DNA from: Croceibacterium aestuarii
GTDB taxonomy: Bacteria > Pseudomonadota > Alphaproteobacteria > Sphingomonadales > Sphingomonadaceae
DNA: 64,000 nt
Direction of reading: 5' to 3'
NCBI RefSeq assembly: GCF_030657335.1
Contig: NZ_CP131039.1
Coordinates: forward strand, 248,001 to 312,000
Position 1 is the first letter of the stretch, and every line of letters starts with the position of its first letter. A model generated the notes under the pieces. It saw nothing but the letters and a program-made list of their open reading frames with translations. It had not been told where the DNA came from and made no database searches. This document shows positions 8,354 to 25,221 of the stretch, in pieces. The position numbers and the translations under genes are program-made.

Positions 8354-9775
8354 ATGGCGAGTGCCGAACAGATCTATTCGTCCTCGACGAGCGAAGATGC
8401 GACGCCAGCGCGCTTGGCGGAGAAACTCGCCCGGCTGATCGAAGACGAAATCGCCATCAACAACCTCCCTGCGGGCGGAATCGTGGGTTCGCTGCGAGAC
8501 CTGTCGGAGCGCTATTCGGTCGGTCGTGCCGCAACACGCGAGGCTGTCGCCCTGCTCGAGCGTCGGGGCCTGGGGCGACTGCGGCCCGGTCCTTGCGGAG
8601 GCTTTGTTGTCGCGCAGCCGGAGGCGGATTCGATCGGCACCGAACTGGCGAATTACTTCCGCTTGATCGAGGTCACGCGCAGGCAAATACAGGATGCGTA
8701 CGAAGCGGTGGATCTCACAGCCGCCGGAGCCGCGGCCCGTGCAGAGACGAATGAGGATTTGCTCGAGTGGCTGCGCACGCCGCAAGAATTCGCGGGCCCC
8801 CAATGGCATCGCGAGATCAGGCGGGCGGTCGGGCGAATGTCCGGGGAGCCGGTGCTGGAGTTGTTCGTCCAGTGCCTGAACGCCCTCACGGAGCCGCTTG
8901 TCGGATCGGGGGCTCCGGACGCCGAGAGTGAGAGATCCGCGGCCATCGAAGCCGGACGTTTGGCCTCCGCCATCGAAGCCGGCGACGGCGGAGCCGCGAC
9001 AGCCGCGGCGGCCCATCTCCATGCGCGCCTCCGTACCTGGCTTGAAAATGCGGATTCCCGCATCGAGTTGCCCGACATCGAGACCTCGCGAATGGCCGAC
9101 GACCGAACACTCGCCTCGCTCGTCGCCCGGCGCATCGCGGCGGAGGTTGTTCGCGGATCTGGGTCGGGCCAGCGGCTGGGTTCGGAGTGGGACCTGTGCG
9201 AACGGTATAGCGTAAGCCGGACAACGCTCCGTCAGGCGATTAGGCAGTTGCAGGACAGCGGACTCGTCGAGTGCCGCCGGGGACGCGGCAACGGTCTGCT
9301 GACACGCGACCCGAGGGGTACCGGCAGCATCAGGCTCGTCCTCGCCTTCCTGATCAGCCGACAAATGGACCCGCTCAACGCCGGCACGTTCCTGTTCCAG
9401 CTCAACCGCTACGTTCCGGCCCTCGCGGTGAGCCGGGCCAGTCCAGCCCAGCGCGTGAGGCTCGAAAAGCTGCTGGCGCGGGTGCGGCGGAGTGTGTCAA
9501 TCGATCGCTACGACTTGCTTCGCCTGGTCCAGTGCGTCTCGCAGGCAGCGAACAGTCCTATCATCGACCTTTTTTCGCGTTGCCTTGCGGCCTACGAAGC
9601 GAGGTTCCACCCACAGCTGATGGAGCGCCTGCCGACCGATGTGCAGAGCGAATACTTCGACTTGTTGTCTTCCTTGATGGCCGACTTCGACGACGGAAGC
9701 CGGTGGGACATCGATCGGGCAAAGGAGCAGTCGGCCAAGGTCATGCTCGAGATGAGCCGCACGCGGCCGATCTGA
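8354..9775 (+). CDS. Tandem GntR-type regulator with two winged-helix/FCD-like units
   Basis: About 473 residues built of two GntR-like halves in one chain. Half 1 has a winged helix at about 15-90 (LRDLSERYSVGRAATREAVALLERRGLGRLRPGPCGGFVV) and a helical FCD-like domain to about 230. Half 2 repeats this, with a winged helix near 255-320 (LGSEWDLCERYSVSRTTLRQAIRQLQDSGLVECRRGRGNGLL) and a second helical domain. Ordinary GntR/FCD regulators are about 230-250 residues with one DNA-binding domain. The ATG at 8354 follows GGGAG; an in-frame TTG at 8306 is less likely. It is convergent with, and 8 bp from, the MFS gene that ends the accessory cluster, so it is the best local candidate for regulating that cluster. 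The effector is unknown. Confidence 0.85.
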   Translation: MASAEQIYSSSTSEDATPARLAEKLARLIEDEIAINNLPAGGIVGSLRDLSERYSVGRAATREAVALLERRGLGRLRPGPCGGFVVAQPEADSIGTELANYFRLIEVTRRQIQDAYEAVDLTAAGAAARAETNEDLLEWLRTPQEFAGPQWHREIRRAVGRMSGEPVLELFVQCLNALTEPLVGSGAPDAESERSAAIEAGRLASAIEAGDGGAATAAAAHLHARLRTWLENADSRIELPDIETSRMADDRTLASLVARRIAAEVVRGSGSGQRLGSEWDLCERYSVSRTTLRQAIRQLQDSGLVECRRGRGNGLLTRDPRGTGSIRLVLAFLISRQMDPLNAGTFLFQLNRYVPALAVSRASPAQRVRLEKLLARVRRSVSIDRYDLLRLVQCVSQAANSPIIDLFSRCLAAYEARFHPQLMERLPTDVQSEYFDLLSSLMADFDDGSRWDIDRAKEQSAKVMLEMSRTRPI

Positions 9776-9783
9776 ATTTCGCC

Positions 9784-11205
9784 TCAGGGCTGCGGTGGGA
9801 AATACAAGTCTTCCCGCAAGCGGCGGCCAGCAAGCCAGTAATGGAAAGCGGCCCAGGCAAACACCGCCAGAACGCCTAGCAGCGCCAGGCGCAGACCGTG
9901 TGTGGAAGCGACAAGGCAGGCTGTGTCAAGCACGGTGCCCATGCCGTCTTCGCCTCTGCCGCCCGGACAACGGGCGAAGAAATCTCCGCCGGCGAAGGAT
10001 CGAGCGGCGAAGAGATCGCTGAGATAGCCCGTCACCGATGGTCCCAAGCCAGCACTCAAAATACCGACCATGAGCGCCACGATAGCCGCAGTGATGGCCC
10101 GCATTCTCGGACCGGCCAGGTTCTGCATCGTCGCCATGGTCTGCGCCATGTGCGTGCCGAGGATGAGGTTGCCGACGAAGACGAAGCCGAGCGAGACGTA
10201 AAGGTCGCGGGCGAGCAGCGCTCCGGCATAGGCCGGGATGCACAGCACGAGCGCGATCGCCGGCGCCCACATGGCCCAGCGTATGTCGCGCCGAACAAGC
10301 CGGTCGTAGCCGAAACCGCCGACCAGCATGCCGATGCCGTTTGAAAAGAAGCTCACCACGCCGAAGAGGAGGCCGATCGTCGCCAGGGGCACGGCGAACC
10401 CGCGCAAGTAGAAGGGCAGCACGAAGTTGGCGATGGCGTTCATCGCGAAGCCGGCCAGCACGAAACCGGCGAGCAATTGGCGAAATGTCGGCTTGGCCCA
10501 CAGGAAATGGACGACGGTGAGGAATCCGGGAGCCTTCTCGTCTGGCGCGGAGATTGCACTTTCAGCCATTCCGCGAGGCGGCTCGCGCAAGGTGAAAGCC
10601 ACGAGCAGCGCTACGACGAGGCCCGGCACACCCATCGCGTAGAAGGCCGCGCGCCAGCCCCACTGGCTGGCGAGAATTCCGCCTACGGATTGTCCCAACA
10701 GGAAGCCAACTGGGGCGCCGAGCAGGATGATCGCCATCATCGACCCTCGGCGCTCGGAACGGAAATGATCGGAAATCAGCGAATTGCTGATCGGCTGTGC
10801 GCCCGCCTCGCCGATACCAACGCCAACCCGGCCGAGCAGCAGGGTGGCGAAGTTTGTGGCGAAGCCGCAGGCGACCGTCATGATTGACCAAGCGGCGATG
10901 CACGCCGCCAGCAGGCGCGTTCGCATGGTCCGTTCGGCCAGCATGCCCAGGGGGATGCCGAGCACCGAGTAGAGGATGGCGAAACCAAGACCCTGCAACA
11001 GCCCAAGATCGGTATCGGTCAGGTGGAGGTCTTCCTTGATCGGCTGGGCGAGCACGGCCAAGATCGCCCGGTCGGCGAAATTCATCACCGCGACCAGCAG
11101 GAGGACGAATATCACCCACCGGCGATAGCCCGGCTGTAGCAGCGCGTGCTCGCCGCTTCCGGCCGCGTCCCCGGCTGGAACCGGCTCGTTCGCAATGTCT
11201 GCCAC
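9784..11205 (-). CDS. MFS transporter (spinster/Spns-like)
   Basis: About 473 residues with about 12 hydrophobic helices. The MFS signature between helices 2 and 3 is seen as GIPLGMLAERTMRTRLLA, and GRVGVGIGEAGAQPISNSLISDHF is typical of the spinster-like group common in sphingomonad catabolic clusters. The GTG start at 11205 has AAGGGGG 7 nt upstream. It is the last gene of the inferred CmcJ-YciI-LLM-MFS unit, 27 bp after the LLM gene. It probably moves an organic anion or a degradation intermediate across the inner membrane; direction and substrate are not visible. A second MFS gene of similar type lies at 14594-15997. Confidence 0.9.
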   Translation of the reverse strand: MADIANEPVPAGDAAGSGEHALLQPGYRRWVIFVLLLVAVMNFADRAILAVLAQPIKEDLHLTDTDLGLLQGLGFAILYSVLGIPLGMLAERTMRTRLLAACIAAWSIMTVACGFATNFATLLLGRVGVGIGEAGAQPISNSLISDHFRSERRGSMMAIILLGAPVGFLLGQSVGGILASQWGWRAAFYAMGVPGLVVALLVAFTLREPPRGMAESAISAPDEKAPGFLTVVHFLWAKPTFRQLLAGFVLAGFAMNAIANFVLPFYLRGFAVPLATIGLLFGVVSFFSNGIGMLVGGFGYDRLVRRDIRWAMWAPAIALVLCIPAYAGALLARDLYVSLGFVFVGNLILGTHMAQTMATMQNLAGPRMRAITAAIVALMVGILSAGLGPSVTGYLSDLFAARSFAGGDFFARCPGGRGEDGMGTVLDTACLVASTHGLRLALLGVLAVFAWAAFHYWLAGRRLREDLYFPPQP

Positions 11206-11232: not shown

Positions 11233-12432
11233 TTATTCAGCGGCATCCTGCAGCTCAGCGTGCGGAACGACGGTCACGTTATGGGCCTGCAGCCTGGGAA
11301 GCACTTCCTCGCCGATGCGGCGGATCTGGTTCATGTACTTCTCGTGCGGCATATCGCCCCGGTTGATCACCAACAGGACATTGTTTGCCCCTGCGTCGCT
11401 GCATTCGGCGGTGATACGCTCGACGATTTCGTCGGCGGTGCCCAGCGGCATGTGCTGCGCCGCGCCGCGCACCGTATCGATATCCCATTCGTTGAAGACG
11501 GTATCGTCCTCCGCCAGCGTGCCCTTCGCCCCATCGCGCAAGTGTTCGAAGGCCGTGGACGAGTAATACTTCGTCTTCTTCACGTCGCTCTGCCAGACTT
11601 GGTCATAGCGCAGCAGCGTGTTGAACAGGTACATAAGGTGTTCGCCATATTCGTCGATCGCCTGGTCCTTTGAATCTGCGACGTAGCAATCGACCATGAT
11701 GCTGACCTTATTCGGATCGACCTTGCGACCGTACTTCGCCTGGCATTGCGCGAAGTAGCGGAGGGTGTCTTCGCGTACCGGACCGGCGAAGATACCGGGC
11801 GTGATGGTGGCATCGTGCTCTGCCGCCCACTCGATGGTTTCCTTGGAGCCGGTCAGAGGCACCCAGACGGGCGGGTGCGGCTGCTGCACTGGGCGGGGCC
11901 AGATGGCCACATCGTTGAACTGGTAATGTTCTCCGTCGAAACTGAAGCTGTCCTGCGTCCAGGCGCGGTGCATGACTTCGTAGGCCTCGTTGAAGCGCGA
12001 GCGCGATTCATCCATCGGCACGTTGAATATCTTGTACTCGCGCGGTGCGCCGCGACCCACGCCGCAGATCAGCCGCCCGCCGGTCATGCAATCGAGCATG
12101 GCGATCTCTTCGGCCAGCCGCAGCGGCTCGTGGATCGGCAGGAGATTGGCGTAGACGAGGATCTTGATCTTCTCGGTCAGCTGCGAAAGCGCCGCCGCCA
12201 TCAGGTTAGGCGAATTGCCCAGACCGAAGGGCGTGCCATGGTGCTCGTTGATCGCGATTCCGTCGAAACCCTGTTTCTCGAGCTCGACCCAAGCTTCGAC
12301 ATGATTCCTATAGGTGTCGATGGCGACCTGCGGCTCGAAGTGCGCCTTTCCGAGCCGGGGCAGTTCGCCATCCTTGCGGAACTTGTCCACGTTTTCGGCG
12401 TAGGCGGTCCAATCGAAAACAAACACCTGCAT
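11233..12432 (-). CDS. LLM-class flavin-dependent oxidoreductase (luciferase-like monooxygenase)
   Basis: About 399 residues of the bacterial luciferase-like TIM-barrel family: AWVELEKQGFDGIAINEHHGTPFG near the N-terminus, KIKILVYANLLPIHEPLRLAEEIAMLDCMTGGRLICGVGRGAPREYKIF in the middle, and WPRPVQQPHPPVWVPLTGSKETIEWAAEH. Family members use reduced FMN or F420 to oxygenate or oxidise small organic compounds. The start is the ATG at 12432 (GGAG 8 nt upstream); the upstream open frame to 12777 overlaps the YciI gene and is not real. It lies 74 bp after the YciI-like gene and 27 bp before the MFS gene, probably one operon. No flavin reductase partner is adjacent. The substrate is unknown. Confidence 0.9.
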   Translation of the reverse strand: MQVFVFDWTAYAENVDKFRKDGELPRLGKAHFEPQVAIDTYRNHVEAWVELEKQGFDGIAINEHHGTPFGLGNSPNLMAAALSQLTEKIKILVYANLLPIHEPLRLAEEIAMLDCMTGGRLICGVGRGAPREYKIFNVPMDESRSRFNEAYEVMHRAWTQDSFSFDGEHYQFNDVAIWPRPVQQPHPPVWVPLTGSKETIEWAAEHDATITPGIFAGPVREDTLRYFAQCQAKYGRKVDPNKVSIMVDCYVADSKDQAIDEYGEHLMYLFNTLLRYDQVWQSDVKKTKYYSSTAFEHLRDGAKGTLAEDDTVFNEWDIDTVRGAAQHMPLGTADEIVERITAECSDAGANNVLLVINRGDMPHEKYMNQIRRIGEEVLPRLQAHNVTVVPHAELQDAAE

Positions 12433-12506
12433 TATCAAATCTCCGCGTACGATTTCGTTAACTTCCCGCGCAGGATGCGCCTTCGACGGCGGTCTCGGGC
12501 GCGGGC

Positions 12507-12827
12507 TCAGCCCGGGCCGGTTCCTTCCGGCGTCCCGATGCGAAACTGCGCTTCCTCCAGCCGGATCACCCGCGCCAGGCCCGACTGCTGCATCGGATCG
12601 CCGGCGAATCCGGCGCGCACCTCGTCGATATCGTTGGCGCGCATGACGAACAGCACCAGCTCGGACTCGGCGAGCAGGCCGGCCATGGCGATCATGCCCG
12701 ACTTCTCGAGCGCTTCCATATAGGCCGCGTGCTCGGCGAAGCCTTCCTGTTCGAATGCAGGCTTGGACCGGTCCCATTTCTCGGTCCGCTCCACCAGCGC
12801 CACGTAACTCTTCAGCATCGTCTCCAT
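12507..12827 (-). CDS. YciI-like (YCII-related) protein
   Basis: About 106 residues with the ferredoxin-like YciI fold: KSYVALVERTEKW at the start, AEHAAYMEALEKSGMIAMAGLL with the conserved His and a strand, ELVLFVMRANDIDEVRAGFAGDPMQQSGLARVIRLEEAQF at the end. Family members are small dimeric proteins, some of them hydrolytic or lyase enzymes in aromatic degradation; most have no known function. It sits 22 bp after the CmcJ-like gene and before the LLM oxygenase, so it may act on a product of one of them (inference). Two ATGs, 12827 and 12818, are both usable; GGGG and GGAG lie upstream. Confidence 0.8.
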   Translation of the reverse strand: METMLKSYVALVERTEKWDRSKPAFEQEGFAEHAAYMEALEKSGMIAMAGLLAESELVLFVMRANDIDEVRAGFAGDPMQQSGLARVIRLEEAQFRIGTPEGTGPG

Positions 12828-12849
12828 CCCCTGTCCCGGCCGGTGTCGG

Positions 12850-13656
12850 TCATTCGTCGAATACCGCGATGGTGCGGACCTCGAAGCTCTCGCGCCTCGG
12901 CGAATCCGGGTCGGCGGTCGGGTCCACGATGGCGGTGTGGCCGGTGAACTTCCAGTCCGGGTCGGCGGTGTCGAACAGCCGGAACACCAGCGCCTCGTCA
13001 GGTTGCATGTCCGGGAAATAGTACCATTCGTGGTTCGGATTGTAGGCCATGTTGAGGCCCGCCGGCATGCCCGGCTTCCAGCCATTCTCCTGCTTGCCGA
13101 AGCAGACCCGCAGGAAGTCGCCCTTGTCCACGCTACGCCGGTCGCACACCGCCAGCGGCGAGTTCTCGACGGGCTTGGTGCCGCGCCAGACATTGACGTT
13201 CATCAGCCGCTTCCTGCCGATCTCCTCTTCCCGGCCGGGCGCCAGGCGAGGAATCCACATGCGCAGCGCCTCCTCGTTGAAATCGACGTGCGCGCTCAGC
13301 GCCGGACCGCCGCCCTTCTCATCCTCGCCGCCGCGCCAGATGCCCATGAAGGCGAAGACCTCGCTGGCGCCGGTGACGCGCTTCACCAGGTCGCAGACCT
13401 GCGGATAGTAGCGGGTCTCGAAATCTTCGGTGTTCGACCAGTCGATGTCGACAGGATGCTTTTCCAGCGTGAAGCCGTGCGTTTCGAACGAGGTGTCGGC
13501 CAGCCGCGCGTTTCGGACCACTGCATCGTGATCCTCCATCGCGAATGAGTAGCTGCCGTTCTTTTCGATCCACCCGCCGTCCGCCGCGCGTTCGGAATAG
13601 CGGACGAAGCTCTCGATTTGCCCGGCCCGCGGCTCCTTTTCCTTCACATCGGTCAT
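12850..13656 (-). CDS. CmcJ/NvfI-family oxidoreductase (putative non-haem iron/2-oxoglutarate enzyme)
   Basis: About 268 residues. The hallmark segments of the CmcJ/NvfI and GA4-desaturase-like family are present: His123-Val-Asp125 in SAHVDFNEEA as probable iron ligands, MNVNVWRGTKPVENSPLAVCD, PNHEWYYFPDMQPDEALVF (His209), TGHTAIVDP (His240) and the C-terminal RESFEVRTIAVF. Relatives in fungi and actinomycetes carry out oxygenation or endoperoxide-type chemistry on natural products. The ATG at 13656 is preceded by AGAGGG 6 nt away. It heads the unit CmcJ-YciI-LLM-MFS and has an AATAGTGCC motif about 95 bp upstream. That it works on the same compound as the TauD-type enzyme of this cluster is inference. 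Confidence 0.85.
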   Translation of the reverse strand: MTDVKEKEPRAGQIESFVRYSERAADGGWIEKNGSYSFAMEDHDAVVRNARLADTSFETHGFTLEKHPVDIDWSNTEDFETRYYPQVCDLVKRVTGASEVFAFMGIWRGGEDEKGGGPALSAHVDFNEEALRMWIPRLAPGREEEIGRKRLMNVNVWRGTKPVENSPLAVCDRRSVDKGDFLRVCFGKQENGWKPGMPAGLNMAYNPNHEWYYFPDMQPDEALVFRLFDTADPDWKFTGHTAIVDPTADPDSPRRESFEVRTIAVFDE

Positions 13657-13723
13657 CGCAGCCCTCTCCATCGGCGCTGTCAGGTCCGTTGCCGCCACGC
13701 GGTTCGATCCGGACCCGTCATCA

Positions 13724-13764
13724 TCAGTTAGTGCCACGCGTGGAGTCGAAAATAGTGCCCACAT
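13724..13764 (+). promoter_or_regulatory. Operator-like motif, copy A (with a weaker second half-copy)
   Basis: On the plus strand AAAATAGTGCCCACATTG at about 13749-13766 lies 95-110 bp upstream of the CmcJ-like start. A weaker copy (CAGTTAGTGCCAC) begins 24 bp to the left, with AGTGCC at 13730 and 13754. The same core occurs before three other units of the cluster at 14570, 20279 and 20417. Read in gene sense it is GGCACTATTTT. A shared operator is the simplest explanation; the regulator is not proven. Confidence 0.55.
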
Positions 13765-13792
13765 TGCCGTGTGGCTGCGCGGCGCCGGCCCA

Positions 13793-14512
13793 TCACGGCA
13801 AAGCGGATTCGATCATGTCGGCGGTTTCTGTGACCGCGACGTGCTGAAGATCGTGGGTGAACGGCATTTCCTCGACCCGCCAACCCTCGCGCTTGCGCAG
13901 CTTTTCGGCCACGGGAACGAAGGTATCGTTCTTGTAGCCGGTGGCTACGACATAGGTCTTGATCGGGATCCGCTCGCGAGCACCGGTAATCCGCGCCGGC
14001 TCGGTAAAACAATAGACCGACTGCGGCGTGCGGCGGTCTTCGTAGGACGCGCGCGCGGCATCGGTCATGTGGGTGTTGAACCCGACCTTGTTGATCCGCG
14101 GCGGCGGAACGAGGTACTCGCCTTCCTGCTCGGGCAGGTGGGCCGGCATCGCGGTGATCTCATTGAGGGTGTCGCCGTCTTCGGGGAAGAAGGCGTCGAG
14201 ATACAGCAGCGAGGCAATCTTCCCTTCCGGGATCAACGACAGCGCCTGCGAAACGGCCATTCCGCCATAGGAATGGGCGACGAGCAGGACGTCGTCGAGA
14301 TCCTCGTACTTGATGACGTTGGCGATGTCCTGCGCATGCAGCGAAAGGTTGACGTCCGGGCTCGTCAGGTGGGCCCGCTCCCCCAGCCCGGTCAGCGTGG
14401 GCGTGAAAACATAGTGGCCGCGATCGCGCAGCAGGTCCGCCACCTCGCGCCAGCGCCAGCCCCCGACCCATGCGCCATGGACGATGACGATATTCGCACG
14501 CTTGTCAGCCAT
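13793..14512 (-). CDS. Alpha/beta hydrolase (EstC-like esterase/hydrolase)
   Basis: About 239 residues. Oxyanion motif HGAW is at 12-15, the TPTLTGLGERAHL segment is typical of EstC/MES-like hydrolases, and the nucleophile elbow AHSYGG has Ser81. The C-terminal THDLQHVAV supplies the likely catalytic His. No signal peptide, so cytoplasmic. Such enzymes split carboxylic esters or lactones. The ATG at 14512 has GGAG 6 nt upstream. It has its own copy of the cluster motif at 14570-14588 and so may be separately initiated; it lies between the CmcJ unit and the TonB-SnoaL-MFS unit. It would suit release of an acid or alcohol from an imported ester (inference). Confidence 0.88.
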   Translation of the reverse strand: MADKRANIVIVHGAWVGGWRWREVADLLRDRGHYVFTPTLTGLGERAHLTSPDVNLSLHAQDIANVIKYEDLDDVLLVAHSYGGMAVSQALSLIPEGKIASLLYLDAFFPEDGDTLNEITAMPAHLPEQEGEYLVPPPRINKVGFNTHMTDAARASYEDRRTPQSVYCFTEPARITGARERIPIKTYVVATGYKNDTFVPVAEKLRKREGWRVEEMPFTHDLQHVAVTETADMIESALP

Positions 14513-14569
14513 TCAGCTCTCCGTTCGATTCGATGGCGATGCGCTCAGTTGTCCAGCGCGACATCGCGT

Positions 14570-14588
14570 AACTAGTGGCGACATTACC
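14570..14588 (+). promoter_or_regulatory. Operator-like motif, copy D (divergent copy)
   Basis: AACTAGTGGCGACATTACC matches copy A (AATAGTGCCCACATTGCC) at 14 of 18 aligned positions. It lies about 58-76 bp before the hydrolase start, in the same orientation relative to its gene as the other copies. It is the weakest of the four. Confidence 0.4.
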
Positions 14589-14593
14589 GCCGG

Positions 14594-15997
14594 TCACACC
14601 GGTAATCCCTCGGCGCGCATCTGAAGAATCCGCTCGCGATAGGCCTTGATCCCCAGCCAGTAGACGGTCGCCGCGGCCGGGAAGAAGATCGCCGCGCTGG
14701 TGGTCATTGCATAGCGCAACATGGCTTCGTCAGCGAAGACGACTTGCGTCAGGTATGCAATCAAGGTGGGCCCGATGGCAAAACCGGCGGCAAGCATCAC
14801 GAACAGGTAGATCGCGGTAACCTGTCCGCGCATCTCGTTGGGTGTCATCACCTGCAAGGCGGTGTTGAGCGAGGGAAGCACCATCAGCATGAGTGCTGGG
14901 CCTATCCCGTGCATGGCCAGGGCCAGCCAGGGCGACGGCATCAGCGGCATGGCGATGGTGAACGGGACGGCGGCGGTTATGCCGATTGCCATCACTCGCA
15001 GGTTGGCATCCGCATGTCCGCGCCGGCTGAAATATTCGTTGATTTTCACCGCGGCATAAAGCGCCGGAGCTGCGAAGGCCAGACTGACGAGGCCATTGAA
15101 CAGGCCGATCTGTGCAGGCTGCCAGCCATAGGTACGGGTGAAGAATGCCGCGTTCCATGCACCGACGCCGGTCATGTGGATCGACGTGAAGGAAAGGCCG
15201 AGGAACATCGGTAAATAGAGCTTCCAGTGCCGAACGAGGTACCGCACCACGTCGCTGAGAGTGGCCCCCCTCACCTTTTCACCTGGAAACGGCGCTATGC
15301 GAATTCCGCGACGCGCGGGCTCGGCCAGGAAGGTGAACAGCAAGGCGATCGGCAGACCGACAAGACCGGTCATCATGAAAACCAACTGCCAGTCGCGAAG
15401 TTCGCCGAGAATGGGAACTTCGATCGTTGGCAAGCCTGCGAGTATGTGGATCAGGAATGCCCCCAGCAGCAATGACATCGCGGTGCCGGCCTGCAGACCG
15501 ACGTTGTAGATGGCGATGCCTCGGGGAAGCTTCTCGGGCCGGAAGTAGTCCGCCAGAAGCGAATAGGACAGCGGCCCCTGGATCGATTCCCCCGCACCGA
15601 TCCCGAAGCGGGCCACGAAGAACTGCCAGAAGGTGACTGTCAGCCCGCACGCTGCGGTCGCGACGCTCCAGACCGCGATGGAAATGATCATCAGCCACTT
15701 GCGATTGTACCGATCCACCAGCCGCGCCGCGGGAATGCCCACCACCGCGTAGAACAGCACGACGGAGAACCCGAGCAGGTAGCTCATCTGCAGATCGGAA
15801 AGCTGGAGGTCGCGCTTCACCGGTTCAACCATCAGTGTCATCACGCCGTTGTTGAGCTGGGCGCACATCTGTGCGGCGGCCAGCGCCCATGCCGCGTAGT
15901 AGGCCTGCCGCATCGGAGGCCAGGAGGCGGCGCCTGCGACATGCGGCTCCTGAACTACCGCGATATCGGCGGGAGCGGACAAGCTTACATCGTCCAC
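14594..15997 (-). CDS. MFS transporter (spinster/Spns-like)
   Basis: About 467 residues, 12 predicted membrane helices. GIPAARLVDRYNRKWLM is the MFS loop 2-3 motif, and FFVARFGIGAGESIQGPLSYSLLADYF matches the spinster-like group. The start is not an ATG: a GTG at 15997 (residues M/VDDVSLSAPADIAVV) has GGGAG 8 nt upstream and begins 43 bp after the double-SnoaL gene. The frame open to 16252 overlaps that gene and is not used. It is the third gene of the TonB receptor-SnoaL-MFS unit. Paired with the outer membrane receptor it probably completes uptake of the cluster's substrate (inference). Confidence 0.88.
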   Translation of the reverse strand: MDDVSLSAPADIAVVQEPHVAGAASWPPMRQAYYAAWALAAAQMCAQLNNGVMTLMVEPVKRDLQLSDLQMSYLLGFSVVLFYAVVGIPAARLVDRYNRKWLMIISIAVWSVATAACGLTVTFWQFFVARFGIGAGESIQGPLSYSLLADYFRPEKLPRGIAIYNVGLQAGTAMSLLLGAFLIHILAGLPTIEVPILGELRDWQLVFMMTGLVGLPIALLFTFLAEPARRGIRIAPFPGEKVRGATLSDVVRYLVRHWKLYLPMFLGLSFTSIHMTGVGAWNAAFFTRTYGWQPAQIGLFNGLVSLAFAAPALYAAVKINEYFSRRGHADANLRVMAIGITAAVPFTIAMPLMPSPWLALAMHGIGPALMLMVLPSLNTALQVMTPNEMRGQVTAIYLFVMLAAGFAIGPTLIAYLTQVVFADEAMLRYAMTTSAAIFFPAAATVYWLGIKAYRERILQMRAEGLPV

Positions 15998-16040
15998 GCA
16001 ATCATCTCCCGGCTTCGCTGCTGGCCATCGGTGTTCTCCC

Positions 16041-17066
16041 TCAATCGTAGACCGGCGGTGGAGCGCCGGCGAGCGCATCGCCGGTCCAATGCTCTGCGAT
16101 CCATCCGTCGGCCATGCGAAACATGTCGAACCCCGTCGTCGTGTAGGTTTCGCCGCGGCGCGCCGGGTGGGGATGGACCCGCGCCGTGACCAGCACGACC
16201 AGGTTCGCTTGCGCCACGACCGCCACGACAGGCTGCGAGACGTGGGACTCAACCGACTTGTCGGGGAAACTCGCCAGTCGCGCTGTCAGCGCCTTGCGTC
16301 CGCTGGCATGGTTGGGGTCGTGCTCGACATAGGCCGCCGCGACGAAGCGTTCGGCTTCGTCTTCGTGAGTGGCTTCGAAGACCGTGCGCCAGGCGTCGAA
16401 TACCAGCCGCTTATTGGCCGCCAGCGTCGGATCCGCTGCTCGCAGGAGGTCCAATTGCGCGTCGCCGACGCGCCCGGTCACACGCTGCGGACCGCCGGCT
16501 TCGGGTGGAGGGGTGGCTGGGCCCGGTGGAAGCTCGACCGAGTGCCAGTGTTCGGCCAGCCTGCCACCGGCGATCCGGAACAGGTTGAAGTGCGTGGTAA
16601 CGAACGGCCTGCCGTCGGGCCCCTTCATCTCCTCGCGCAAGGCCATGACCACGAGGTCGTTCTCGGCCAGGATCGTTATCAGCGGGGGCGAGACGACATC
16701 AGGGATCTTCCGCCGCTCGACACCCGCGAAGACCTTCTTGAAGGCCTCGCGTCCGGTTGAGATGACCGGGCTGTGCTGGATGTATCCTTCGGCCAGCATG
16801 CTGTCGGCCAGTTCTTCGTGCCCGGCATTCACGACGCTGCGCCACATGTCGAAGACCAGGCGCTTGTTGGCCGCGAGCTGTGGATCGGCGTCTGCCAGCA
16901 ATGACAAGGGGTGGGGGTGAGCCCACAGGTCGACCATTCCGTCTTTCGCCGATGGAGGAACGGGCGGCGCCAGCGTCACTTGAACCTTCGACTCGTCTGC
17001 CATCCCGGCACCCGCGCCCGGTATTGCGGCGAGCAGGAAAAGGACGGGGCCCACACCTGCTTTCAC
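16041..17066 (-). CDS. Exported protein with two tandem SnoaL-like (NTF2-fold) domains
   Basis: About 341 residues. Two homologous halves are plain: NKRLVFDMWRSVVNAGHEELADSMLAEGYIQHSP and NKRLVFDAWRTVFEATHEDEAERFVAAAYVEHDP. Each is followed by an 'FxxxRxxxGRxAEHW' type ending (LFRIAGGRLAEHWHS; MFRMADGWIAEHWTG). These are SnoaL-like NTF2 folds, known as cyclases, isomerases or binding proteins. A hydrophobic stretch (VGPVLFLLAAIPGAGAG) suggests export, though it lacks a classic positively charged start. The start is uncertain: GTG at 17066 is chosen because the hydrophobic leader follows directly. The frame extends to a TTG at 17138 that overlaps the stop of the TonB gene. It is the second gene in the receptor unit. 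Confidence 0.8.
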   Translation of the reverse strand: MKAGVGPVLFLLAAIPGAGAGMADESKVQVTLAPPVPPSAKDGMVDLWAHPHPLSLLADADPQLAANKRLVFDMWRSVVNAGHEELADSMLAEGYIQHSPVISTGREAFKKVFAGVERRKIPDVVSPPLITILAENDLVVMALREEMKGPDGRPFVTTHFNLFRIAGGRLAEHWHSVELPPGPATPPPEAGGPQRVTGRVGDAQLDLLRAADPTLAANKRLVFDAWRTVFEATHEDEAERFVAAAYVEHDPNHASGRKALTARLASFPDKSVESHVSQPVVAVVAQANLVVLVTARVHPHPARRGETYTTTGFDMFRMADGWIAEHWTGDALAGAPPPVYD

Positions 17067-17134
17067 TCCCGTTCCGTCCGCCACGACGCGTCGCGCGTCA
17101 CCGCCGTCGCCACACCGTCGGTCCGGGCGGGCGC

Positions 17135-20100
17135 TCAAAACTTCTTGCCGAGTTGGACCTGGAACACCCGCCCGAGCGGGCTGCCGTAGGTCGGATCGAA
17201 CCGCACCGCGCTACCGGCTAGACCGGACTGGTTGACCACCAGCGGCGGGTCGGTGTCGAACAGATTCTGGACGCTCAGGATCAGCGACAGCCCGTTGGCG
17301 AGCCAGTTGCCGGGCGCGTCTCCGGTATCGAAGCCAAGCGTTAGGTCGACGGTGGTGTAGGACGATATCTTCGCATAGTTCGCCGCCACGCCGACCGGCA
17401 ACTGCGCCAGGTCCATCTTGTAGGACCCGCGATAGTTGACGAAGCCATGAGCCGACAGCCGGCCGACGCCGACATCGCGTCCCCAGCCGATCGTGCCGCG
17501 ACCCTGGAATCGCAGCGGATACCCGAACCTGTTGACCTGTTCGGTCAGCGGGGCGCCTGGGATTGGCGAGATCTGCCAGCCCAGCGTATAGGTCGCCACC
17601 ACGCCCAGATCCCACTGGTTCAAGCCGGTGTCGAACGTGTAGTCGGCCGTGAAGTCGATCCCGTCGCCGATGGTCTTGCCGGCATTGATCCGCCGGCCGC
17701 TCACGAGGGCAAGCACGTTGCTCGGCGGCGTCGGCGGACCGAACAGCCCGCCGGTCTCACCCCCGGTGTTGTAGCAAGTGATCATCGAATCGTAGAGCGC
17801 CTGAGTGGTCACGGCCTGGCCGAAAACGGCGGCGCAGGCCGGGTTGCTCGTGTCGATGGTCGGGAATTCGCCGAAGAACGCCACCGGGTTGTTCGCCGCC
17901 AGCGTCGGGAAGAGCGCAGGGTTGTAGATGATCTGCGAATTGTAGATCTGCTGGTTGATCGCCGCCACCGGGCCGACGTTGTAGGCCGGGGTACTGACCT
18001 GTCCGTCGTAGGTGACGTGCCAGTACTTTGCGGAGAGGAAGAGCCCGGGGATTGCAGCCGGTTTCCAGTCGGCCCCGAAGGCGTAGGACTCCGATGTCTC
18101 TGGAGAGAGGTTTCCGTTCGCGCCGCCGATCGCCTGGTATATCGAGGCGAAGCCATATGCCGGGCCCTGGCAGGCGGCACAAATCGAACTGGAGATCTGC
18201 GATCCCGACGCGACTCCCGGAATCACGCCCGTCTGGGAAAACGGATCGTTGTCGGCGAGGCCGGGGGCGTGAAACGCCGTTCCCCAGCTGCCGTAGAGCT
18301 TGAGCCCCTCGACCGGCCACCAGTTCACGCCGACGCGCGGATTGGTCGTCCCCCCGGCGTCGCTGTAGTGGTCGTAGCGCCCGGAGACGTTGAGTTCGAG
18401 CTCGTAGATCGCCGGAGTCTCGCTGCCGGGCGAGACCAGCGGAACGTAGACTTCGCCGAAGACCGAATCGACGTTGCGCTTGTTGAAGTTGCTTCCGCCG
18501 AAGTTGTTCTGGTTGAGCAGCGAGCCGACATAATGCTCCCCGCCGAGTGCAAGCTTCACGTCGCCCGCTGGCAGCGAAAACAGCTTGCCGTTAGCGACTG
18601 CGGAATAGACCTGCATCTCGAACTTGGCGCGGTTCACCAGCGAAAGACCCTTAGCGAGGATCGCCTGAGCCGTCGCGTCGTCGGTACATTCGAACGCGGT
18701 CGGATCGCAGAAGAAATTGAACGTTCCGAAGTTCGGCGCGGGGGCGCCGCCGGTCTGCGTGGTAACGGTGGGTTCGTCGTGGGTGCCGGCGTAGGCCGAC
18801 ACGGTGAGGCCCCAATCGTACGGCAAGGAAATGTCCGCCCCGCCGCCGTAGCTCCAAGTCTCGGTCGTGCCGGTGCGCATCGGCGGGCCGATGTCGTAGA
18901 CCGTGCTGTATGCGACGTTGAGCCCGCCCGACTGGCACGCCGCTACCAGTGCGGCGGGGCCGGTCACCACGCCGCCGGTGTAGTGACTCGGGTTGCAGGG
19001 GCTGAACGGATTGCTGTTGGGGATGACCGGCAGTTGGCCGAAGTTGGTAACCCGGTTGCTGGTCGACGAGTTCGGGCCGTTAATGGCGATATCGCGGTGG
19101 ACGTAGAGACCATCGCCGAACAGCTCGAGCCACGGCGTCAGCCGCTGGCGAAAATTGGCGGCGACGCGGTCGGCCTGCATTTCCGGGATGACTTCGATGC
19201 CGTTCCACGTGTTGAAACGGTTGGCCGTCGTGCTGAGCTGCGACAGCGTCAGTGTCTTGCCGTCCTGCCCTGCGGGAATGCCGTAGTAGACTCCGTTCAC
19301 CACGACGTTGCCGGGCGCCGAGAACAGCGACGATGCAGGGCCGCCGTACGGTGAGAGGTCGTCGTTGTAGAGATCGGGACGCGATGACGCGGCGAACGCG
19401 TCCTGGTCCGAATGCTGGTAGGATGCGATGATGCCGCCTTCGAAATCGCCGCCCTCGCCCCAGGTCGTGCCGGCGATGCCGGTGACGTACCAGCCCTCCT
19501 GCCCGTCGTTCTTGCGATAGCCGCCGTAGGCCTCGAGCGTGCGCTCGGGACGCCGCAGGATGTAATTCACCGTGCCGGCGATCGCGTCGGCGCCGTAGAG
19601 CGCGGAACCGCTGTCCTGCACCACATCGATGCGCTGGATCATTTGCGCGGGATAATTGTCCCCGTCGAAGATGTTCATGTTGGCGCCCTCGTACGGTACG
19701 CGGTGTCCGTTCACGAGACTGAGAGTCGCCCCGACCCCGAGTCCGCGGATGTTGGGCGATTTGCTATAGGTAAAGGCAGTCAGCGTGTTGCCCTGCTGGG
19801 CCTGCCCACCCGCATAACTGTCGCCGCTTCCCAGCTTGAGAATCGAGGGAACGGTGTTGAGAATGTCGGCCGTGCTGGTCAGGCCTGTCGCCTCGAGATC
19901 CTTCTGATCGAGCTGGACGAGCGATGCGCCGACCGGGGCCACACCTTCGATCCGGGTGCCGGTGACGATGATCGTGCTGCCGCCGCCGTCGCTTTCTTCG
20001 GAGGTGCTGCTGTCGGCGGGGTTCGCTTCTGCGGTATCCTGGGCGCTGGCCGATCCGGCGGACGCGAAGATCGAGGCACTCGCGAGAAGTCCGTAAAACG

Positions 20101-20143
20101 CCGCCCGCTTGAGGAAAGCCGGCTCGCTGCGCATCGCATTCAT
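17135..20143 (-). CDS. TonB-dependent outer membrane receptor
   Basis: 1002 residues. The signal peptide ends GSASA before QDTAEA. TonB-box/plug features are STIIVTGTRIEG followed by a plug domain to about 200 (SPNIRGLGVGATLSLVNGHRVP, IDVVQDSGSALYGADAIAGTVNYILRR). A 22-strand barrel follows, ending in the aromatic C-terminus VFQVQLGKKF. This is the oligosaccharide/catechol-like class expanded in sphingomonads. A Cys-containing loop (SSICAACQG) may be disulphide-linked. The ATG at 20143 has GGAGGG 7 nt upstream. It is the first gene of a unit with the double SnoaL and MFS genes. A cluster motif copy lies about 136-150 bp upstream. It probably imports the compound handled by the cluster. Confidence 0.95.
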   Translation of the reverse strand: MNAMRSEPAFLKRAAFYGLLASASIFASAGSASAQDTAEANPADSSTSEESDGGGSTIIVTGTRIEGVAPVGASLVQLDQKDLEATGLTSTADILNTVPSILKLGSGDSYAGGQAQQGNTLTAFTYSKSPNIRGLGVGATLSLVNGHRVPYEGANMNIFDGDNYPAQMIQRIDVVQDSGSALYGADAIAGTVNYILRRPERTLEAYGGYRKNDGQEGWYVTGIAGTTWGEGGDFEGGIIASYQHSDQDAFAASSRPDLYNDDLSPYGGPASSLFSAPGNVVVNGVYYGIPAGQDGKTLTLSQLSTTANRFNTWNGIEVIPEMQADRVAANFRQRLTPWLELFGDGLYVHRDIAINGPNSSTSNRVTNFGQLPVIPNSNPFSPCNPSHYTGGVVTGPAALVAACQSGGLNVAYSTVYDIGPPMRTGTTETWSYGGGADISLPYDWGLTVSAYAGTHDEPTVTTQTGGAPAPNFGTFNFFCDPTAFECTDDATAQAILAKGLSLVNRAKFEMQVYSAVANGKLFSLPAGDVKLALGGEHYVGSLLNQNNFGGSNFNKRNVDSVFGEVYVPLVSPGSETPAIYELELNVSGRYDHYSDAGGTTNPRVGVNWWPVEGLKLYGSWGTAFHAPGLADNDPFSQTGVIPGVASGSQISSSICAACQGPAYGFASIYQAIGGANGNLSPETSESYAFGADWKPAAIPGLFLSAKYWHVTYDGQVSTPAYNVGPVAAINQQIYNSQIIYNPALFPTLAANNPVAFFGEFPTIDTSNPACAAVFGQAVTTQALYDSMITCYNTGGETGGLFGPPTPPSNVLALVSGRRINAGKTIGDGIDFTADYTFDTGLNQWDLGVVATYTLGWQISPIPGAPLTEQVNRFGYPLRFQGRGTIGWGRDVGVGRLSAHGFVNYRGSYKMDLAQLPVGVAANYAKISSYTTVDLTLGFDTGDAPGNWLANGLSLILSVQNLFDTDPPLVVNQSGLAGSAVRFDPTYGSPLGRVFQVQLGKKF

Positions 20144-20278
20144 ATCTTCACCCTCCCAAAGAGCACTCTTCGGCGGCAGCGATTCCGCCCGACTGCCGCG
20201 GCGCGGTGCATATCGCGCGACAAGTCGGCACGCCCGGTGCCTGCTCCCGAGTGCTCATGTGGAGCTTTGCACCTGCGT

Positions 20279-20293
20279 GAAAATAGTGCCGTC
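20279..20293 (+). promoter_or_regulatory. Operator-like motif, copy B (TonB receptor unit)
   Basis: TGAAAATAGTGCCGTCAATTG on the plus strand, 136-150 bp before the TonB receptor start. It is identical to copies A and C over AAAATAGTGCC. Confidence 0.55.
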
Positions 20294-20416
20294 AATTGCG
20301 GCCGGCTCTGGCCGTCGCCCCACGGGCCGGCCTCCCACGCCCTCGGAAGACCGGGCAAGCGGCAGCTTTTTCGCTGCACTTTCCGCGGATTCGGCAACCT
20401 GGAGGATGAGCTGAAA

Positions 20417-20434
20417 TGAGGGCACTATTTTACC
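20417..20434 (-). promoter_or_regulatory. Operator-like motif, copy C (TauD)
   Basis: On the minus strand TAAAATAGTGCCCTCATTT, the inverted partner of copy B, 143-160 bp before the TauD/TfdA start. Relative to its gene it has the same orientation as the other copies. It shares AAAATAGTGCC and the trailing CATT with copy A. Confidence 0.55.
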
Positions 20435-20576
20435 ACGACAACGGAGCGCCAGATGCATGCGACACCGGAACTTGGGTGAACGGGATGAAGTCAAAGCGTG
20501 GGCGCGGCGTGCCCAGGTCGCTTCGAAGACGTCGCCCGTGACCTAGAATAATCTGGCGGGAGGCGAGGTCATCTGC

Positions 20577-21841: not shown

Positions 21842-22834
21842 ATGACGAATCAAATGAAGGTGGACCGGCGCGGAGTGATCCGTGGGGGCGGAGCAATGGT
21901 GGCTGGGGCCATGCTGCCTTGGGCAGGCGCCGCGAGCGCTGCGGGCAGCGGCACGCAACTGCACATCCTCGGCTCGCGTGCCGGGCCTAGCGTCGGGAGC
22001 GGGTCGTACCAGACGAGCTACGCCCTGACCGTCGGCGACGCGCTGTACGTGGTCGACTGCGGCTATGGTGCGACCGAACAGTTGGTCCGCGCCGGCTTGC
22101 GCCCCCAGGACATGCGCGACTTGTTCATCACGCACCACCATCCTGACCACAACATCGAGCTCGGCACGCTGATCTATTTCGCCTGGTACGCCGGGCTGGA
22201 AAAGCCGCTCGGCATCTACGGCCCGCCGCCGATCGAGGCGATGACCAAGTCCTACCTCGCGGCGATCAAGCCCGACATCGACATCTGGCTCGACGATATC
22301 GGCCACGCGCCGCTCGGCCCGATCAACGTTACCGAGCTGAGCAAGCCGCAGGATGTGCTCGACGACGGCACGGTCAAGGTGCGGTGCACGCTGGTCAATC
22401 ACCCGCCGGTGGTCCCGGCGCTCGCCTATCGCTTCGACACGCCCGGCCGTTCGATTGTGTTTTCAGGTGACACCACGCCGATGCAAAGCCTGGTGGAACT
22501 TGCGCGCGGCGCCGACGTGCTGGTGCATGAGGCGATTTACACCAAGGACGGCGTCACCGCGAACCTCACTCTCAACGGCGATGCGCGGGTGGATAGCAGC
22601 GCGGCCGGTTCGGCGATTGCCGGAAACGCGCAGAAGCTGCTCGACCACGTCCTCAATTCGCACACCAAGGCGGAGGATGCAGGGCGCATCGCCGCCGAAG
22701 CCGGAGTCAAGACGCTGGTCCTCGCGCACACGGTCTCGCTGGTGCCGGGTGTCACCGACGGCATGTGGATCGAAGCCGCGCGCAAACACTTCGATGGCGA
22801 GGTAATCTTCGCCCACGACCTGATGGTGATCTGA
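21842..22834 (+). CDS. Exported metallo-beta-lactamase-fold hydrolase
   Basis: 330 residues. It begins with a probable Tat signal (DRRGVIRGGGAMVAGAMLPWAGAASA). The zinc motif HHHPDHN follows at about 98-104, FSGDTTP carries the later metal Asp, and LAHTVSLVPG near the C-terminus carries the last His. This is the RNase Z/arylsulfatase-like branch of the MBL superfamily. Members hydrolyse lactones, sulfate esters or other esters; the substrate is not readable here. The ATG at 21842 has AAGGA 8 nt upstream. It stands alone between two tRNA genes. Confidence 0.88.
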   Translation: MTNQMKVDRRGVIRGGGAMVAGAMLPWAGAASAAGSGTQLHILGSRAGPSVGSGSYQTSYALTVGDALYVVDCGYGATEQLVRAGLRPQDMRDLFITHHHPDHNIELGTLIYFAWYAGLEKPLGIYGPPPIEAMTKSYLAAIKPDIDIWLDDIGHAPLGPINVTELSKPQDVLDDGTVKVRCTLVNHPPVVPALAYRFDTPGRSIVFSGDTTPMQSLVELARGADVLVHEAIYTKDGVTANLTLNGDARVDSSAAGSAIAGNAQKLLDHVLNSHTKAEDAGRIAAEAGVKTLVLAHTVSLVPGVTDGMWIEAARKHFDGEVIFAHDLMVI

Positions 22835-22851
22835 CGCTTTCGGGAAGGATG

Positions 22852-22925
22852 TGGAGGCCCGAGCCGGAATCGAACCGGCGTGCAAGGATTTGCAGTCCTC
22901 TGCGTAACCACTCCGCCATCGGGCC
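22852..22925 (-). tRNA. tRNA-Cys (anticodon GCA)
   Basis: Minus-strand cloverleaf: acceptor GGCCCGA/TCGGGCC, D-arm TGGCGGAGTGGTTACGCA, anticodon arm AGGA-CTGCAAA-TCCT giving GCA, T-loop GGTTCGATTCC, discriminator T, CCA encoded at 22852-22854. Confidence 0.95.
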
Positions 22926-23070
22926 CCCGATCCCGCCGATGGCGGACACCGCCGGAGCGGGGAGACGGGCACCTAGCGAATGGGCGGCAGGGGCGCAATG
23001 CGATTCCGCGCCCCCGCTTGCCCGCGCCGGGCAACACGCTTAGCACGCTAGCGATCGAGGGAGAGCCGCG

Positions 23071-24549
23071 ATGGCCGACGAGGTAAAGCTGCAAAGGGTC
23101 GAGGGCCACAGCGAGGAGCGCTTCCTCGGCTCCGACGTGTTCCAGAGCGACGGACGCGCCCTGCCCGCATCGCGCCGCGGCGGTACCGTTACGGAAGAGG
23201 CGCGCGAGATCGACATCTACCACAGCGCCGACGTGGTCGTGGTCGGCGGTGGCCCGGCAGGCTGCGCCGCGGCCTGGGCTGCCGCCAAGGCCGGTGCCGA
23301 CGTGACGCTGGTCGAGCGCTACAACTGCCTCGGCGGGCTTTCGACCGGCGGCCTCGTCATGTGGATCGACCGCATGACCGACTGGCAGGGCAACCACGTC
23401 ATCCAGGGCTTCGCGCGCCACTTCATCGAGCGCATGCCGAAGGAGGGCGTTGCCGGCCCGCCGCCCGAGGACTGGGGCTCCACCGACGAGAAGAAGGTCG
23501 CCTACTGGGGCCAGCGGACCACCGCGTTCCACGGTATCGTCCAATGGGCGCCGACGCTCGATCCGGAAAAGATGAAGCTCCTGAACCAAGAGATGCTGCT
23601 CGAAGCGGGCGTGCGGATCGTGTTCCATGCCTGGGCGGCGCGGCCGATTGTCGAGCATGGCACGGCAAAGGGCGTGATCTTCGAGAGCAAGGCCGGCCGC
23701 CAGGCGATCATGGCCAAGGTCGTGGTCGACACCACCGGCGACGGCGACATGTTCGCGCGTGCCGGGGCGGAATTCGACACCGACATCGAGGAAGGCGATG
23801 TCCACCATTCGATGAACACCGGCTGGGTGCTCGGCGGGGTCGACATGAACCGGTGGATCAACTGGAAGGTGCTCTACCCCGAGCAGCTACGCGACTTCAT
23901 GGAGAAGGGACGCAAGGAGCTCGGTTTCTTCCAGACGCCCTACGTCAGCTGGCGACCCGACATCGCACTGTTCCTCGGCCCGCGGCAGTCGGGCCTGTCG
24001 GCGCTCGACGTCGACGACATGACCGAGGTCGAGATCCGCAGCCACCGGCTGATGGAAGGCCATTGCCGCTTCTTCCGCGAAAATGCGCCGGGGTTCGAGA
24101 GCGTCTACAGCCAGCAAAGCGCCAGCCAGCTCGGCGTGCGCCACACCCGGCGCATGGCCGGAGTCGAGCGCATCGAGCGGAGCGGCTGGTCAGACCCGGC
24201 GCCGGCGGGAACCGAGGTCGGCGTCAGCCCCTCGATCAGCCCGAAGTTCCCGGTCGTCTCGGTGCCCTACGGCAGCCTCGTACCAAGGAACCTCGACGGG
24301 ATGCTCGCGGCAGGGCGGCACATGAGCTGCGACGCCAACAGCCACGGTTTCATGCGCGAGATCCCGCAGTGCTGGCTGACCGGCCATGCCGCCGGAGTCG
24401 GCGCGGCGGTGGCCGCCAACCGCGGCGTGCAGCCCCGCGAGGTCGATGTCGACGAGGTGCGCAGCATCCTGCGCCGGCAAGGCGCCCACCTGCACGACGA
24501 TGCCGCTGTGGAGGCGGCGAGACACAGCGAGGCGGTCGCGGCGGAGTAA
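23071..24549 (+). CDS. FAD-dependent oxidoreductase (FAD_oxidored family)
   Basis: 492 residues. The Rossmann FAD-binding motif is DVVVVGGGPAGCAAAWAAAKAGADVTLVER at about 53-82. GGLSTGGLV follows, then VVVDTTGDGDMFARAGAEF in the middle and MLAAGRHMSCDANSHGFMREIPQCWLTGHAAGVGAAVA at the C-terminus, all typical of the PF12831 family. These enzymes oxidise small organic acids or alcohols; the specific substrate is unknown. An N-terminal extension of about 50 residues precedes the Rossmann fold. The ATG at 23071 follows GGGAGAG. It is not obviously in an operon; the next gene is convergent and 16 bp away. Confidence 0.9.
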   Translation: MADEVKLQRVEGHSEERFLGSDVFQSDGRALPASRRGGTVTEEAREIDIYHSADVVVVGGGPAGCAAAWAAAKAGADVTLVERYNCLGGLSTGGLVMWIDRMTDWQGNHVIQGFARHFIERMPKEGVAGPPPEDWGSTDEKKVAYWGQRTTAFHGIVQWAPTLDPEKMKLLNQEMLLEAGVRIVFHAWAARPIVEHGTAKGVIFESKAGRQAIMAKVVVDTTGDGDMFARAGAEFDTDIEEGDVHHSMNTGWVLGGVDMNRWINWKVLYPEQLRDFMEKGRKELGFFQTPYVSWRPDIALFLGPRQSGLSALDVDDMTEVEIRSHRLMEGHCRFFRENAPGFESVYSQQSASQLGVRHTRRMAGVERIERSGWSDPAPAGTEVGVSPSISPKFPVVSVPYGSLVPRNLDGMLAAGRHMSCDANSHGFMREIPQCWLTGHAAGVGAAVAANRGVQPREVDVDEVRSILRRQGAHLHDDAAVEAARHSEAVAAE

Positions 24550-24565
24550 CCCTTCGCAGGCTGCC

Positions 24566-25102
24566 TCAGCGCTGGAAGCCGTACTTGCGGCCCAGCTCGG
24601 GATTGCCGAGATCCATGACGATCGTGCGGCGAGCGATTTTCCATTCGCCGTTTTCGCGTGCGTACCGGTCCTCGTAGCGGCCGACCGAGAGCACTTTGGG
24701 ACCCTCCTCGCCGTCGCGGATCAGCGTCGTGACGAAGCTCGTGCCCGTCGCCTCGTCGCCCGACAGAGTCTCGATCACCGTGTTCGTGATGAGATGGCGC
24801 ATGAGGAAGGTGGTCGTTCCGTCGGGGAGCCGGACCGCGAATCGCTCGTGATCGCGCGCCGCCTGTGCCGCTATATTGTCGCGCCCCTGGACCAGCACCC
24901 TGCCTCCCGACGCGATTTCACCGTCGGCGGTGAACAAGGAAGCGTACTCTTCCGGAGCGCCAAAGTCGTGAACCTCGCCGTAGCGCATCATGAGATTGAC
25001 GATCGCAGCGCGGTCATCGGCTTCTCCGGCGCTCGCCGGAATTGTCCATAACAGGCCAAGGGTGGCCGCCGCCGCCAAGGCTCCGCGGATGTTTGATCGC
25101 AT
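24566..25102 (-). CDS. Exported SnoaL-like protein
   Basis: About 178 residues. The signal peptide MRSNIRGALAAAATLGLLWTIPASA is followed by an NTF2/SnoaL_4-type domain (DDRAAIVNLMMRYGEVHDFGAPEEYASLFTADGEI; later GRYEDRYARENGEWKIARRTI). Catalytic-type Tyr, Asp and His residues of the family are partly visible, but no activity can be assigned. The ATG at 25102 has GGGGAG upstream; 17 further upstream codons are open but would bury the signal peptide. It is divergent from the DUF6152 gene, 119 bp away. Confidence 0.85.
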   Translation of the reverse strand: MRSNIRGALAAAATLGLLWTIPASAGEADDRAAIVNLMMRYGEVHDFGAPEEYASLFTADGEIASGGRVLVQGRDNIAAQAARDHERFAVRLPDGTTTFLMRHLITNTVIETLSGDEATGTSFVTTLIRDGEEGPKVLSVGRYEDRYARENGEWKIARRTIVMDLGNPELGRKYGFQR

Positions 25103-25221
25103 TTCGTTCTCCCCTCCCGACTTGCTCGCCGACCGAAGCCTTATCGAACGCATTGGACAAGCGCGCCAGTCGGGTTATTCTTTGCCCGGCGAATTATCTG
25201 CTGCAACCGGGGGAGAGAACG

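Follow-up and report, generated by a model that had tools for sequence, protein, structure and literature searches.

Regulators of the FadR (FCD) subfamily of GntR proteins carry one GntR-FCD unit per chain, CitO likewise has a single GntR unit, and GabR/MocR proteins are homodimers, in contrast to the fused tandem protein described here. According to the part of PMC4494728 on which we draw, the operators of FCD-type GntR regulators are palindromic, with TKGT/ACMA boxes and a GT-AC spacing that is usually 3 or 2. The same part of that source describes divergent regions with two sites, each near its own gene, and names some GntR regulators with direct-repeat, non-palindromic sites.

We analysed a stretch of 64,000 nucleotides from Croceibacterium aestuarii (hereafter the window), in which an operator-like motif precedes the units of a gene cluster that lies beside a candidate GntR regulator. 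As in the FadR/FCD subfamily (DhdR, DgoR, NanR, FadR, VanR Atu1419), GntR winged helices are present, here in both halves of the protein, as are FCD or FCD-like effector domains; the operator has a core resembling TNGT...ACNA, and divergent regions hold two sites, each near its own gene (PMC4494728, in part). Unlike in that subfamily, there are two units per chain, and the operator is asymmetric, polar and locked to a -10-like element, with a GT-AC spacing of 4 instead of the 3 or 2 given in the same part of PMC4494728. GabR/MocR regulators, for which PDB titles (4mgr, 4n0b) speak of a GntR superfamily autorepressor and transcriptional activator, are comparable in the double role proposed below and in their direct-repeat, non-palindromic sites (PMC4494728, in part), but their C-terminal domain has an aminotransferase fold, whereas ours appears to be FCD-like. 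CitO from Enterococcus faecalis, an FCD-containing GntR protein that is reported to bind upstream of the cit promoters and to induce them (PMC4746285, in part), also serves divergent operons (PMC3198936, in part), although its pathway is unrelated. As far as the consulted part of PMC4494728 defines it, the known GntR frame covers the domain types, the GT...AC core and the double sites in divergent regions, while the fused architecture and a polar site locked to a -10-like element lie beyond it. Among the papers listed by literature searches for tandem or fused GntR proteins, none is about such a protein by title.

Operator copies and cluster genes

The genes concerned, which together look like a cluster for the uptake and oxidative breakdown of one organic compound, are the following:

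8354..9775 (+), candidate regulator, single-chain GntR-FCD-GntR-FCD-like protein of 473 aa (from Pfam, alignment, models and co-occurrence; start codon chosen from the alignment)
9784..11205 (-), MFS transporter 1, end of unit A
11233..12441 (-), luciferase-like flavin monooxygenase (LLM)
12507..12845 (-), YciI-like protein
12850..13662 (-), CmcJ/NvfI family oxidoreductase (NF041278, 209.9 bits)
13793..14512 (-), alpha/beta hydrolase
14594..16120 (-), MFS transporter 2 (start chosen by hand, uncertain)
16041..17060 (-), double SnoaL-domain protein (start chosen by hand, uncertain)
17135..20143 (-), TonB-dependent receptor, 1002 aa
20577..21452 (+), TauD/TfdA-type dioxygenase

After TauD, at 21842-25153, the window holds metallo-beta-lactamase-fold, FAD-type and SnoaL2 genes, for which the regions mapped in the relatives gave no match and which seem to lie outside the regulon.

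The original prediction held that an 11-mer, AAAATAGTGCC (GGCACTATTTT in gene sense), occurs in three exact copies here, and a scan of the whole 3,347,658-base genome agrees, with three copies, all within the cluster. They lie at 13749-13759 (+), 20280-20290 (+) and 20421-20431 (-); of the positions first given, 13749 (+) stands, while 20279 and 20434 (-) were off by 1 and 3 bases. When up to one mismatch is allowed, the window still yields three matches, against 0.28 expected, and none of 100 shuffles reached three. Over the whole genome, eight scattered copies with one mismatch are added (11 matches in total), and the reversed control pattern gives seven. The many unrelated genomic copies that the original prediction had named as grounds for abandoning it did not appear, in that no further exact copy was found. 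The sites upstream of the four units are as follows:

13747..13767 (-), operator A, upstream of the CmcJ-YciI-LLM-MFS unit, gene sense GCAATGTGGGCACTATTTTCG
20278..20298 (-), operator B, upstream of the TonB receptor-SnoaL-MFS unit, gene sense CAATTGACGGCACTATTTTCA
20413..20433 (+), operator C, upstream of TauD, gene sense GAAATGAGGGCACTATTTTAC
14567..14587 (-), operator D (degenerate), upstream of the alpha/beta hydrolase gene, gene sense GTAATGTCGCCACTAGTTACG

All four have the orientation relative to their genes and the upstream placement that had been proposed, with distances of 87 bp to CmcJ, 137 bp to TonB, 146 bp to TauD and 57 bp to the hydrolase gene. A matrix built from the sites of other genomes only puts the same four places at the top of the window, at 37.0 bits for B, 32.4 for C, 29.9 for A and 11.6 for D. 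By itself, the score of D falls inside the range of the best scores from 10 random sequences (6.0-15.0), and we accept this fourth copy, as originally proposed, because the hydrolase gene is also preceded by a site in 9 of the 10 other genomes. The looser pattern AWWGWNNNCACTAKTTW, which was written after D had been seen, matches the genome at exactly four places, A, B, C and D, and its control at none. One claim was set aside, namely that of a second half-copy 24 bp from A (GGCACTAACT): this stretch overlaps the predicted -10 hexamer CTAACT at 13726-13731, and no repeat like it was seen in the downstream flanks of the other sites.

The motif in related genomes

A protein search with CmcJ gave some match in 58 of 397 family genomes, with orthologues at 67-75% identity in 10 genomes besides its own and, among the matches listed, at most 42% identity in the others. 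The orthologous clusters include those of Sphingobium sp. SYK-6 (G144), Croceibacterium selenioxidans and Croceibacterium salegens, six of the clusters coming from named records. Around each CmcJ orthologue, we mapped the homologues of the window genes and the motif, with gene starts extrapolated from the window proteins. The motif lies upstream of CmcJ and of TauD in all 11 genomes, of TonB in all 10 that have the receptor, and of the hydrolase gene in 10 of 11, where the site in the window is the weak D. Gene order varies, the hydrolase gene having moved in SYK-6 and the order being rearranged in G138, yet the motif still tracks the first gene of each unit. The original prediction was to fall if orthologous clusters that keep the genes had lost the motif; instead, the motif is kept where the genes are kept, and its conservation before all four units supports the idea that a single regulator would control them. 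The YciI-like gene runs in the CmcJ direction here, in G191 and in G138 and is inverted in the other eight cluster genomes.

At a threshold of 10 of 11 letters, 46 sites lie outside mapped genes in the 11 genomes, two such matches inside G147 genes having been dropped before the counts. Their targets are TauD (11), TonB (10), CmcJ (10), the hydrolase (7), a flavin reductase (3), SnoaL (1, in the genome without a TonB match) and MFS1 (1), and the remaining three have no cluster gene in gene sense. Leave-one-genome-out matrices add the CmcJ and hydrolase sites of G102, the hydrolase and regulator sites of G076, one site in G144, and D. Footprinting of the 11 clusters plus 600 bp with such matrices gave 50 sites of at least 19 bits outside mapped cluster genes, plus D, and only two matches of at least 9 bits inside them. 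The G102 site at 28111, a 10-of-11-letter match that adjoins the gene for another tandem GntR protein, is counted among the 46 sites and the 47 used below but was left out of the footprinting matrix, the -10-like test and the dyad test. G390 and G193, as near repeats of G144 and G069, were dropped from both tests and from matrix training, and the matrices applied to these two genomes did contain their near twins.

Specificity was assessed at three scales. Across the 397 family genomes, the pattern AWWSWSRGCACTATTTT matches 38 times, with the 11 cluster genomes accounting for 34 of these matches, and the reversed control matches twice; the 386 genomes without the cluster contribute four single matches, three of which are inside reading frames. 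A relaxed pattern run over the 11 whole genomes placed 46 of its 49 matches in the cluster (reversed control, 3), in keeping with the enrichment before this cluster only that had been predicted. In a same-genus sample of four, G191 has the cluster, the motif and the tandem GntR gene, while in G066, G136 and G232 a close CmcJ orthologue, a pattern match and a tandem GntR match are all missing. The motif is confined to this cluster and is probably the operator of one local regulon. If so, a cluster that is also present in a model organism for lignin degradation, SYK-6, gains a defined regulon, an operator and a candidate regulator.

The operator can also serve as a query with which to locate the cluster, and parts of it that are missing, in genomes. 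For instance, in three relatives, a flavin reductase gene is divergent from the regulator gene, with an operator facing it (L048:14579-15196 in G147, L050:2184-2807 in G240, and near 325.3-326.0 kb of C1 in G102). PF01613 is found in the two relatives tested, and the third was recognised by 48% tblastn identity; no homologue was found in the window or in the other cluster regions. Its presence fits a two-component flavin monooxygenase, and the reductase is a likely missing partner of the luciferase-like monooxygenase and a likely regulon member in these three relatives. In SYK-6 (G144 cluster region, 27260), an extra site of 19.3 bits lies past TauD with no mapped cluster gene behind it, and it may mark another regulon member.

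Among 23 records with a match, none was a plasmid relative of the CmcJ gene with at least 60% identity. Literature searches yielded no paper for the gene names of the cluster taken together and, among the matches listed, none about this cluster by title for the motif letters. A locus tag for the SYK-6 cluster was not found in the available portions of PMC7376174 and PMC6874591.

Site polarity and the -10-like element

Beyond the initial observation of a shared motif, the site proved to be polar, asymmetric and locked to a -10-like element. In the 47 sites (the 46 plus D), conservation extends only from -7 to +10, numbered from the first G of GGCAC; CACTATTTT is almost invariant, and AAWTGWS precedes the GG. 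The operator is an 18-bp asymmetric site with the gene-sense consensus AAWTGWSGGCACTATTTT, in which a degenerate left half-site, WTGW, is paired with a near-invariant right half-site, ACTATTTT, ACTA included, at a GT-AC spacing of 4. A simple palindrome was rejected: the best centre of symmetry is at -5.5 (score -6.47) and the second at 0.5 (-6.80), and dyad symmetry is not significant against column shuffles (p = 0.41, 36 sites). Partial dyad elements are nevertheless present at centre 0.5, and a homodimer may bind the site as an imperfect palindrome in place of the polar reading that we favour.

Polarity is evident from the arrangement of the sites, since a cluster gene lies in gene sense for 43 of 46. 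Eleven divergent regions lie away from the regulator gene (ten are TauD-TonB or TauD-SnoaL and one is TonB-hydrolase), and in these 22 of 22 sites are closer to the gene they face, by extrapolated starts. A DNA loop of constant length joining the two sites of a divergent region was discarded, their spacing ranging from 61 to 163 bp in 10 genomes.

A -10-like hexamer, CAAWWT, occupies +28 to +33, counted from the same G of GGCAC. Its second base, A, and its sixth, T, occur together at offset 28 in 11 of 35 sites, whereas the mean over offsets is 1.2, and the information of the six bases, 1.89 bits, is above that of all 2000 shuffles, although the hexamer is weak and orthologous promoters are not independent of each other. 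In a reduced set of 23 sites from six genomes, positions 28, 29, 33, 41 and 42 are still among the top six; the sixth, +50, is as conserved as the hexamer and has no explanation. The fixed-spacing test places the hexamers of the window as follows:

13726..13731 (-), -10-like hexamer CTAACT, promoter A
20257..20262 (-), -10-like hexamer CCACAT, promoter B
20449..20454 (+), -10-like hexamer CCAGAT, promoter C

Given a -10-like hexamer at +28 to +33, the TATTTT that lies 17 bp before it occupies the -35 position, and no -35-like hexamer is present at the cluster promoters. The centre of the site is 27.5 bp before the hexamer; if transcription starts about 7 nt past the hexamer, as we infer, the operator centre would therefore fall near -40. 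A class II activator site is centred near -41, overlaps the -35 position and is found at promoters without a good -35 box, and the operator may be placed in the same way.

The tandem GntR protein and its possible mode of action

The protein encoded at 8354-9775 is the only DNA-binding protein among the window genes that are common to the clusters. Pfam finds two GntR domains and one FCD domain in it, with PF00392 (GntR winged helix) scoring 63.3 bits against a cutoff of 27 over two stretches and matching all 10 aligned orthologues (G390 was left out of the regulator protein alignments). The two halves are homologous (hhalign probability 97.8). In a model of the full protein (pLDDT 81.7, pTM 0.80), the N-terminal half contains the FCD effector domain and matches FCD-type GntR structures; the C-terminal half modelled alone (pLDDT 73.9, pTM 0.55) matches GntR winged helices and, weakly, FCD domains. 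Mean column identity over ten sequences is higher in the C-terminal half (78%) than in the N-terminal half (63%), and the recognition-helix regions are each conserved yet unlike each other, reading about VGRAxxRE and VSRxTLRQ.

Full-length orthologues with 54-63% identity were found in each of the 11 cluster genomes and in none of the 386 others, and the gene is at the cluster in all 11. The next match by E-value has 29% identity over residues 18-422, with shorter matches reaching 42%, and at E<=1e-20 a search of 385 class genomes gave a single match, in the window's own genome. Seven of the 10 relatives have the site in reverse in the promoter of the regulator gene itself; a TATA-like hexamer always follows 29 nt from the start of the site (hexamers counted by eye), and the start codon is 102-104 nt away, G144 and G390 being nearly identical there. 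The corresponding promoter of this genome has no detectable site (best 5.1 bits), and those of G191, G069 and G193 have none of at least 9 bits; in G138, the divergent regulator and CmcJ genes share a single site, which is nearer to the regulator start than to the CmcJ start. The designation of the tandem GntR protein as reader of the sites is backed by co-occurrence and by own-promoter sites in 7 of 11 genomes but not by the regulator promoter of this genome, and we consider that the adjacent protein probably reads the operator.

We propose, with a probability of about 0.5, that the tandem GntR protein is a class-II-like activator acting on the polar operator of one regulon and repressing its own gene in most relatives. 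The half-sites are unlike, with WTGW on the left and ACTATTTT on the right, and each would be contacted by one of the protein's two differing winged helices, so that binding would occur in one direction only. A pathway compound would occupy one or both FCD domains, and the loaded protein could then bring RNA polymerase to the promoters of CmcJ, the hydrolase, TonB and TauD, whereas the same site, reversed over the regulator's own promoter, would repress the regulator in most relatives. If this polar reading is true, a regulator made by fusing two GntR units no longer depends on a palindrome, and the direction of a site encodes activation versus autorepression. Counting against this proposal are the regulator promoters without a site here and in G191, G069 and G193, the shared site in G138, the GT-AC spacing of 4, the weak -10-like hexamer with its equally conserved rival at +50, the partial dyad elements, and the fact that GntR proteins are more often repressors.

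Its strongest competitor, less probable but to be taken seriously, keeps the same regulator and sites and makes the protein an ordinary repressor that covers the -35 region of all promoters and is relieved by the substrate. Most FCD-type GntR proteins of catabolic clusters do repress, promoter and site overlap, and in 7 of 11 genomes a site is also present in the promoter of the regulator gene. Yet repressor sites need neither a fixed direction nor a fixed distance from the -10 element, and here 43 of 46 are polar and the -10-like element is locked in spacing; moreover, with TATTTT in place of a -35-like hexamer, there would be no strong promoter to repress.

It is improbable that a different, unlinked regulator reads the site and that the tandem GntR protein is a mere neighbour. 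The lack of an own-promoter site in this genome would suit such a regulator, and another shared one may have been overlooked, the relatives having been annotated systematically only for homologues of window genes. However, of the 397 genomes, the 11 that have the motif cluster are also those with the tandem GntR gene, which lies at the cluster in every one, and in seven genomes the reversed site stands at its fixed place before the start codon.

Still less credible is that the motif is no operator but one half of a promoter recognised by an alternative sigma factor dedicated to it. Fixed direction and a fixed distance to a second conserved hexamer would be expected of such a promoter, and GGCAC recalls what we take to be alternative-sigma -35/-24 boxes; on the other hand, the conserved block of 18 bp is wider than a -35 element, no sigma factor is among the scanned cluster proteins of the window, and the sites are reversed in the regulator's promoter. 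A sigma-54 promoter in particular was rejected, there being no conserved GC at the -12 position. Finally, chance repetition of an 11-mer in AT-rich intergenic stretches can practically be dismissed, since, although 11-mers can repeat and one-mismatch genome matches outnumber those of the reversed control (11 versus 7), no shuffle equalled the window, the exact copies are found only here, and the motif is conserved in 10 other genomes.

In a wider and more tentative version of the activator proposal, the protein would be a single-chain GntR-FCD pseudo-dimer that activates the promoters its sites face and represses its own, and the fused architecture would define a sphingomonad family, each member with a polar operator and a TonB-linked catabolic cluster. 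More distant tandem GntR proteins occur in other sphingomonads (L108:1327-2823, L110:1054-2427, L112:655-1929, and 26584-28041 of the G102 cluster region), and that of L108 has two GntR and two FCD stretches. The G102 gene adjoins another reading frame that resembles a TonB receptor gene and has what may be a variant of the site, GGCAGTATTTT.
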